A DNA stretch of 33,561 nucleotides from Deltaproteobacteria bacterium (GTDB lineage Bacteria; SAR324; NAC60-12). Below are positions 15,970 to 18,741 of the stretch, one piece after another; the stretch's first letter is position 1, and each line of letters opens with the position of its first letter. The DNA is taken from contig WTIF01000289.1 of assembly GCA_011522845.1 (NCBI GenBank), positions 1 through 33,561 of the forward strand, in the 5' to 3' direction. A model generated the notes under the pieces. That model searched no databases. It worked only from the letters and a program-made list of their open reading frames with translations, and had not been told where the DNA came from. The translations under genes and the position numbers were made by a program.

Positions 15970-15996
15970 TTAGCACTCATCAGCTGATAGTGCTAA
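15970..15996. promoter_or_regulatory. CIRCE element (HrcA operator)
   Basis: TTAGCACTC-ATCAGCTGA-TAGTGCTAA; matches TTAGCACTC-N9-GAGTGCTAA with one mismatch; directly upstream of hrcA. Confidence 0.93.
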
Positions 15997-16090: not shown

Positions 16091-17290
16091 TCAGGGTTCT
16101 GATAGTCCCAACAAATTTCGAAAGGTTTCTGGATCATCTAATTTTCTTTCCAGCCGCCTACGAAATTGGGGGAAGGAGATTCGATGGCTGCTTTCCACTT
16201 GGAGATCTTGACTGCTGTAAACCCGCGGATCCAAATTCTGATCAATCAACCACTCCAGCCAACTGTTGTAATCCTGATATAAATCCTCTGGAGGCAGTTG
16301 AAATCCAGTCGAAGTTTCATTGATCTCTTGTGTCAGCTCAAATGCTTCCTCTTCTGCAACTTCTGTTGCATCCGGAGTTAGCCCAGGCATCTTTGTCGTG
16401 GGTGGTGCGGGTGAAAAACCAGTTCTATAGTGAAGACGAAAGGTCTCAAGCAGATCATGCAACCTATCAGTAGGAGTAACCCGTCGCTCCAGACGATGAG
16501 AAAACTGAAGAAAGGAAATCGGTCGGGAGCTTTCAACTCTGAGATTTTCTGCTGAAAGTTCCTGAACATTCAGACCGATTGAATAGAGATGATCGCACCA
16601 TTCATTGAAGCTAAGATATGCTTCGTCTAGTGGCCTTGCAGGGAAGGCGTTATTTTCATCGAAACTTTCTGGAACATAGGCCTTAGGTTTTAGCTCTGGA
16701 GGTGGACGAAACCGCAGCTCATTTTCCAGCGTTTGACTCATCATCGGAGTGGAAGGCGGTGACGGGGGTGCTGGAGGCGGTGGCTGTTTGAGAGGACTTC
16801 CGCCTGGTAGTGGAGGTGATGGCATCGGAACACGCCTAGGCTGCTGAATGGATTGCCTTTCTATTTGCTCCAGTCGGCCCTTCACCTTGTCAACTTCCTC
16901 TGCAAGTCTCAGTAGAGCTTGGTGGGTACCAGCTAGATCTTCTTCGGTGAGATACTTATGTTGCTCTGGTTGCCCAGTTGTAGATTGTGATGATGCGAGG
17001 TGAGGAGAGGTCCAATCTGTTGGGAGCAAACAAAGACTATGAGCTTCCACCCAGTTAGGGGTAGTTAGCTTGCTTTCCCAGTCGGGTAGACGAGCCAGTG
17101 CAGTTTCACAGAAGTGTAAAAATGTCTGATAATTTATTCGATCTTCAGGAGACACCTTTTCTGGTCGGTCCACTCTCAGAGGACACTGTATTTGTTCCAA
17201 CCATTTGATCCAGTCCTGCCAGGTCTTCCGGGATTCCTTTCGTTGCCAGTGTTCGATCAGTCGTTTTTCCAGTTGGTCAAGAGCCTTCAT
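16091..17290 (-). CDS. Uncharacterised W-rich repeat protein with coiled coil and polyproline linker
   Basis: 399 aa; internal repeats EAYLSFNEWCDHLYSIGLNVQELSAENLRVESSRPISFLQFSHRLERRV and DLYQDYNSWLEWLIDQNLDPRVYSSQDLQVESSHRISFPQFRRRLERKL; polyproline SPLKQPPPPAPPSPPSTP; start overlaps upstream kinase stop by 4 nt. Confidence 0.85.
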   Translation of the reverse strand: MKALDQLEKRLIEHWQRKESRKTWQDWIKWLEQIQCPLRVDRPEKVSPEDRINYQTFLHFCETALARLPDWESKLTTPNWVEAHSLCLLPTDWTSPHLASSQSTTGQPEQHKYLTEEDLAGTHQALLRLAEEVDKVKGRLEQIERQSIQQPRRVPMPSPPLPGGSPLKQPPPPAPPSPPSTPMMSQTLENELRFRPPPELKPKAYVPESFDENNAFPARPLDEAYLSFNEWCDHLYSIGLNVQELSAENLRVESSRPISFLQFSHRLERRVTPTDRLHDLLETFRLHYRTGFSPAPPTTKMPGLTPDATEVAEEEAFELTQEINETSTGFQLPPEDLYQDYNSWLEWLIDQNLDPRVYSSQDLQVESSHRISFPQFRRRLERKLDDPETFRNLLGLSEP

Positions 17291-18741
17291 GATGCCTTCT
17301 TTGCAACTTCCATCATCAAATAAAGCGCCAACTCTTGAAGATCAACTTTCACCTGATACTGCTTCAGAAGGCCTCCGATCGAAATCAGAACTCTCCCCAT
17401 CAAAACAAAATTATCGGGAATTTTTACTTCTGCCCTTCTCATGATGCGCATATGAGTTTCCATCTGGCTAAGCCCTGCAAACTCGGCGGGATCTCTCTCG
17501 AAAAGTAATTTTAGCAGTAATGGGCCGTTGGGAACATCAAATCCAGCCTTGCGCAATAATGAATCAAAGTCTGATTGCTGACGATTGAATAGTGCCACCA
17601 AGACGTTTCTGTAAGCTTCACACTCGGAGTCTGTCAACTGAGCGACAGCACCAAAATCCAGCAGGGCTAGCTTCCCTTGAGGAGTTACAAAGAAATTTCC
17701 AGGGTGAGGATCTGCGTGGAACAAGCCGGTGACAAAGATTTGCTTGATGAAGCTTCTTACCAATGCTTTTAGCAGTGGCTCAGCAGCACTGGGCACATCA
17801 CTGAGGAAATGCCGAAGAGGCTGGCCGTCGACAAAACTCATAGCCAATACCTCTCTGCTCAGGAGATCAGGAATCAGGACTGGAAACACCCATTCCTCTG
17901 CTTCATACAGAGCAAGAAATTTTGTTAGGTTTGCTGCTTCATGGTAGTAATCCAGTTCTTGTCGGACACTCCTGCTTAATTCATCAACAGTTTGTTCAAC
18001 ATTCCAACCTTCTGCCCAGCGTTGAAGTAAGGGTGCGATGCGCTTGAAAAACAACAGGTCTGCTTCAATCTTCTCTGCAGCATCTGGCAACTGAATTTTC
18101 AGTGCGACGAGAGAACCACCTCTTGTTTTTGCTCGGTGAACTTGAGCAATAGATGCCGTTGCCAACGGTACTGGATCAACGTCATCGAATCGTAGTTTCC
18201 AATCGGCACCATAACACTGGATTAGCTGCTTTTCGAGTTCTTCCCATGACACACTTGGAGCCTGATCCTGAAGCTCTGCTAGCTGATCTACATAGGTTTT
18301 TGGGAGCCAGTCTCCTTGACAGCTAAGGAACTGCGCTGCTTTTATCCATGCACCCCCTTGTCTGCGGCAAAGCTCAGCCAGCTCGGCAGCGTTCTTCTGA
18401 TGAAGAGTTTGTGTTTCTTCAGCAATTTCATGGGGCTCAAGTACAGGAAGGCGGATTTTCTGAAACGCGTAGGTTCGGGCTGCAATGCTGAGAAGCGCTT
18501 GGCCGGCATCAAAGTAGCGGCTTCCATGAGCATACCACTGGTTCAGATTGTCTGACTGGCTGATGAGTTGTCGGAAAGCCTCAGGAGCATCTGTCCGAAT
18601 CCAGTCGAGAAACCCATCTCCCCAGCCTTTCCATCGTTTGGACCATTCCTCTGAGATACCGGTTTCGTCTGCCCAGTCAGAAACAGTTTGATGGGCTTTG
18701 ACCAGCCAACGTTGGGAATCTCGGAGCCAGTTGTCTGCCAT
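17287..18741 (-). CDS. ABC1/AarF/UbiB family atypical kinase
   Basis: 484 aa; GGAWIKAAQFLS (variant KxGQ), ATASIAQVHRAKTRGGSLVALKIQLP, GLFHADPHPGNFFVTPQGKLALLDFGAVAQL. Confidence 0.9.
   Translation of the reverse strand: MADNWLRDSQRWLVKAHQTVSDWADETGISEEWSKRWKGWGDGFLDWIRTDAPEAFRQLISQSDNLNQWYAHGSRYFDAGQALLSIAARTYAFQKIRLPVLEPHEIAEETQTLHQKNAAELAELCRRQGGAWIKAAQFLSCQGDWLPKTYVDQLAELQDQAPSVSWEELEKQLIQCYGADWKLRFDDVDPVPLATASIAQVHRAKTRGGSLVALKIQLPDAAEKIEADLLFFKRIAPLLQRWAEGWNVEQTVDELSRSVRQELDYYHEAANLTKFLALYEAEEWVFPVLIPDLLSREVLAMSFVDGQPLRHFLSDVPSAAEPLLKALVRSFIKQIFVTGLFHADPHPGNFFVTPQGKLALLDFGAVAQLTDSECEAYRNVLVALFNRQQSDFDSLLRKAGFDVPNGPLLLKLLFERDPAEFAGLSQMETHMRIMRRAEVKIPDNFVLMGRVLISIGGLLKQYQVKVDLQELALYLMMEVAKKAS

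Follow-up and report, generated by a model that had tools for sequence, protein, structure and literature searches.

A core protein of one SAR324 family carries repeats of an apparently undescribed small module and may act as a multivalent tether

Modular bacterial scaffold and adaptor proteins are the closest described parallel to the protein that we report here as X, which likewise has repeated folded modules, a predicted oligomerising helix, flexible linkers and a short conserved helix; the likeness is one of way of working, the module of X showing no relationship, in sequence or in fold, to the families searched. The UbiJ/UbiK and PhaE/phasin proteins offer a second comparison, since X likewise combines a coiled coil with proximity to a UbiB-like gene in one genus, but it differs from them in matching no Pfam or NCBIfam family and in having a kinase association that is not conserved. 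A third is the EF-hand pair, as found in a calmodulin lobe, which the module recalls through a pair of strand-helix units in which the short strands pair up.

X lies in the window, the whole 33,561-nucleotide stretch of SAR324 DNA that was analysed, where the original prediction had given its open reading frame, its coordinates and the quoted residues exactly. It is a real gene under selection: within its genus, overall dN/dS is 0.08-0.11 and third codon positions account for most of the differences. The features on which the following account draws are these.

16091..17290, minus strand: ORF X, 399 amino acids; its start and the stop codon of the AarF-like gene share 4 bp (ATGA)
17287..18741, minus strand: ABC1/AarF/UbiB-like kinase gene (Pfam ABC1, E 2.7e-60), adjoining X only in the window's genus (g1)
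17021..17290, minus strand: N-terminal helix and module N (residues 1-90), from the N versus B profile comparison and a predicted element order as in A and B
16850..16945, minus strand: coiled-coil helix (residues 116-147), a helix in the model, kept in all genera, dN/dS 0.01-0.04
16739..16840, minus strand: Pro-rich disordered linker (residues 151-184), 47% Pro, pLDDT <50
16715..16738, minus strand: short conserved helix SQTLENEL after the Pro-rich linker (residues 185-192), helical in the model, with L188 and E191 near-invariant across genera
16418..16636, minus strand: module A (residues 219-291), from the AF2 module model, in every aligned orthologue
16103..16297, minus strand: module B (residues 332-396), from the A versus B profile comparison, dN/dS 0.00-0.03, missing in g7 orthologues

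The repetition is clearest at the C-terminal end, where copy A (residues 222-281; 16627-16448) and copy B (residues 335-394; 16288-16109) align without gaps at 22 of 60 identities, with a BLOSUM62 score of 106, where the best of 100,000 shuffles reached 32 (0 as good), and where family profiles of the two copies match at E 4e-22. This bears out the predicted pair of gapless copies of about 60 residues; the residues quoted for them were right and the spans assigned, 16433-16627 and 16094-16288, slightly overshoot those residues. The diverged third copy suspected at the N terminus is weak to marginal within the single window protein (215 of 5,000 shuffles as good against A, 96 of 5,000 against B); family profiles relate it to A at E 8e-5 with low probability (33) and support it through the match to B (E 3.5e-8, probability 93.5), together with matching predicted secondary structure.

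Structure prediction of full-length X (pLDDT 67) gave three folded regions, a long helix at 116-147 and disordered, low-confidence linkers, with a pTM of only 0.29, too low to define how the domains are arranged; pLDDT in the coiled-coil helix block is about 45-78. Modules N, A and B share one element order in this model, strand-helix ... strand-helix-helix, where differing predicted folds would have counted against a common module. An AF2 model of a single module, built from 51 module sequences, reached a pLDDT of 88.8 and a pTM of 0.79; because N modules were among the aligned sequences, it is no independent test of N, as the full-length model is. Up to three domains of this one predicted fold occur per chain, their number varying among genera. 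The coiled coil and Pro-rich linker expected between the modules were both found (the model helix and the 47% Pro stretch listed above), and an acidic linker also separates the domains.

Searches returned no credible match for X in Pfam, NCBIfam, PHROGs or PADLOC, those in PHROGs and PADLOC being at chance level, and Foldseek against the PDB and the viral-protein library BFVD found no significant relative of the module; the initial view that X belongs to no known family therefore stands for these four collections and for the PDB. Profile scans of Pfam and NCBIfam, taken to an E of 5, returned no match to the suggested PhaE/phasin and UbiJ/UbiK families. PPR matches to the whole-protein profile covered about 24 residues, had no independent stretch and vanished with the module profile; they were set aside. 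No mention of X was found in the literature. The module is apparently a small, undescribed domain.

An alternative identity for the module would be a degenerate, calcium-free EF-hand-like pair, which would make X calmodulin-like in architecture. The top five matches of the module profile to the PDB were yeast calmodulin (E 0.0015-0.033) and the reversed profile, in a control made with 19 of the 51 rows, gave no calmodulin match; ISFxQF aligns to EF-loop positions 8-13, where strands precede helices in the module model, and the weak Foldseek matches include several EF-hand proteins. The calmodulin sequence match, however, spans only about 40 residues, and the hhalign score against an EF-hand profile (10.2) lies below the best column-shuffled controls (13.4 and 13.6). 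Scored against the two calmodulin lobes alone, the module reached 16.4 at a probability of 3.5%, and no Pfam EF-hand hit passed the cut-off, the best (E 0.085) occurring in 1 of 19 members. Examined for helix-loop-helix pairing, each module has two strand-helix units whose entering helices are short or missing, and the Foldseek comparison with EF-hands is non-significant (TM about 0.33, E >2). The acidic residues that would bind calcium at positions 1, 3, 5 and 12 of the loop are absent, the aligned stretch being RVESSRPISFLQ in A and QVESSHRISFPQ in B. With the reversed-profile control passed and the hhalign shuffle controls failed, EF-hand membership was rejected; the calmodulin resemblance is local and unproven, and we regard a degenerate EF-hand pair as quite unlikely.

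Orthologues of X occur in 29 of the 31 genomes of one SAR324 family (f1), across eight genera (g1 to g8); the two genomes without a match are 75% and 54% complete, and a further match, in G016, is fragmentary and lies at the end of a contig. X is a single-copy core gene of this family. A search by profile alone found orthologues in 0 of 21 genomes from the rest of the phylum, and three other phyla (17, 4 and 291 genomes sampled) gave a single match, L144 (E 3.9e-6), which is limited to positions 107-168, in the coiled coil and linker, and was put down to low-complexity chance. X was likewise not found in phages and plasmids by tblastn or in a scan of viral contigs. In the module profile search, no protein other than X credibly contained the module. 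Weak partial matches at E 0.003-0.011 fell in three other proteins (G045:C88:2848-2952, G007:C167:12360-12518 and G022:C174:19479-19580).

The number of modules changes within the family. In g7, its largest genus, X proteins are about 300 residues long and are without module B. In a tree of LpxA rooted on other SAR324 families, g7 forms a single group (97/97) beside genera that have B, the fork uniting them being only moderately supported (82/95); a single loss of B in g7 is therefore the likeliest history. The LpxA of f1 itself (loci L080-L105) is set off from the LpxA of other SAR324 families by a very long branch, of 1.27 changes per site, a possible sign of replacement or fast evolution.

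Gene order around X is far less constant than X. Members of g1 have it after the AarF-like kinase gene, with the 4-bp overlap, and before hrcA-grpE-dnaK-dnaJ. A CIRCE element at 15970-15996 (TTAGCACTC-N9-TAGTGCTAA, with a single mismatch; chance would give none) lies between X and hrcA, upstream of the heat-shock genes, and X is therefore probably in a transcription unit separate from them. The ATGA overlap in the window, together with the same adjacency in those g1 members whose contigs show it, invites the reading of X as an accessory protein or scaffold for the kinase, as the original prediction had considered. As a general function this is unsupported: adjacency is confined to g1, kinase and X lie on different contigs in g2-g6, and no AarF/UbiB-like kinase was detected at E 1e-30 in any of the 17 genomes of g7, X being present in at least 15 of them. 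That g7 is the only genus without module B and also without a detected kinase leaves room for a link between the two, but the sole g8 genome (89% complete) speaks against it, having kept X with module B and yielding no detectable kinase. The adjacency is local to g1, and a kinase-dedicated role for X is highly improbable.

The commonest place of X is instead beside lpxA and pheS: the order lpxA-X-pheS holds in g3, g4, g5 and g7, lpxA-X in g2 and X-pheS in g6, lpxA is directly upstream of X in g8, and at locus L064 the end of lpxA touches the start of X. (Upstream of lpxA, most genera have a divergently transcribed gene with an LNSGESLxGxI motif and no Pfam hit; L064:4286-4999(-), L065:4310-4999(-) and equivalents.) This arrangement would suit a role in lipid A synthesis or with phenylalanyl-tRNA synthetase, for instance as a tether of LpxA or PheS, yet X lies away from lpxA in g1 and from the best lpxA match in g6 and is conserved all the same. 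PheS and LpxA elsewhere, to our knowledge, need no such partner, and we consider this role unlikely. Because the neighbourhood changes between genera while X stays, its partner is not necessarily the product of a neighbouring gene.

What selection has preserved is the set of folded parts. Within the window's genus, dN/dS is 0.00-0.12 in the modules and as low in the coiled coil (0.01-0.04), whereas the linkers at residues 91-115 and 301-331 show 0.17-0.63; the modules are under strong purifying selection and the linkers are looser. Most of the residues invariant among aligned orthologues are aromatic, hydrophobic, Pro or Gly (W24, W27, L58, W71, P78, W80, Y225, L226, W231, I258, F260, F284 and G291) and few are polar (E19, S259, Q262 and R266), so that no catalytic-type set is apparent; as support for a non-enzymatic X, this is negative evidence. 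Hydrophobicity nowhere reaches the level of a membrane helix, the highest 19-residue mean being 0.26. The SQTLENEL helix, as TLExEL, is a possible short binding motif. Nucleic acid as the ligand of the modules would fit their short helical build and Arg-rich stretches (RRRLERK in B), but X has a pI of 5.2 and a net charge of -17, its modules are neutral to acidic and it matches no DNA-binding family or fold, which makes such binding very unlikely.

We favour, at a probability of about 0.5, X as a soluble, non-enzymatic, oligomerising multivalent tether. Repetition, the concentration of selection in the modules and the setting apart of folded modules by low-confidence linkers all support it, and the loss of module B in g7 is as expected of modular valency. 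The coiled coil, judged from sequence and an uncertain helix, would oligomerise the chain; the oligomer would then present four to six or more modules on flexible arms, each of which may bind a partner protein, or other modules, through an aromatic-rich surface, and X would in this way hold a cytosolic assembly together. Of the multivalent adaptor or scaffold first proposed, the repeats, coiled coil and flexible linker fit all measurements, and the part that falls away is the adjacent kinase as a general associate.

SAR324 bacteria occur widely in the dark ocean. The striking operon overlap of X with a kinase gene shows that such an arrangement can be a local accident, and a module that is predicted with confidence and has no match in the PDB offers a definite target to those seeking new folds. 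We suggest, tentatively and at less than even odds, that a new small domain fold originated inside a single SAR324 family and was triplicated in one core protein, which would organise a lineage-specific cytosolic assembly. As a core gene of one whole family that was found nowhere else searched, X is a marker for lineage-specific cell biology.
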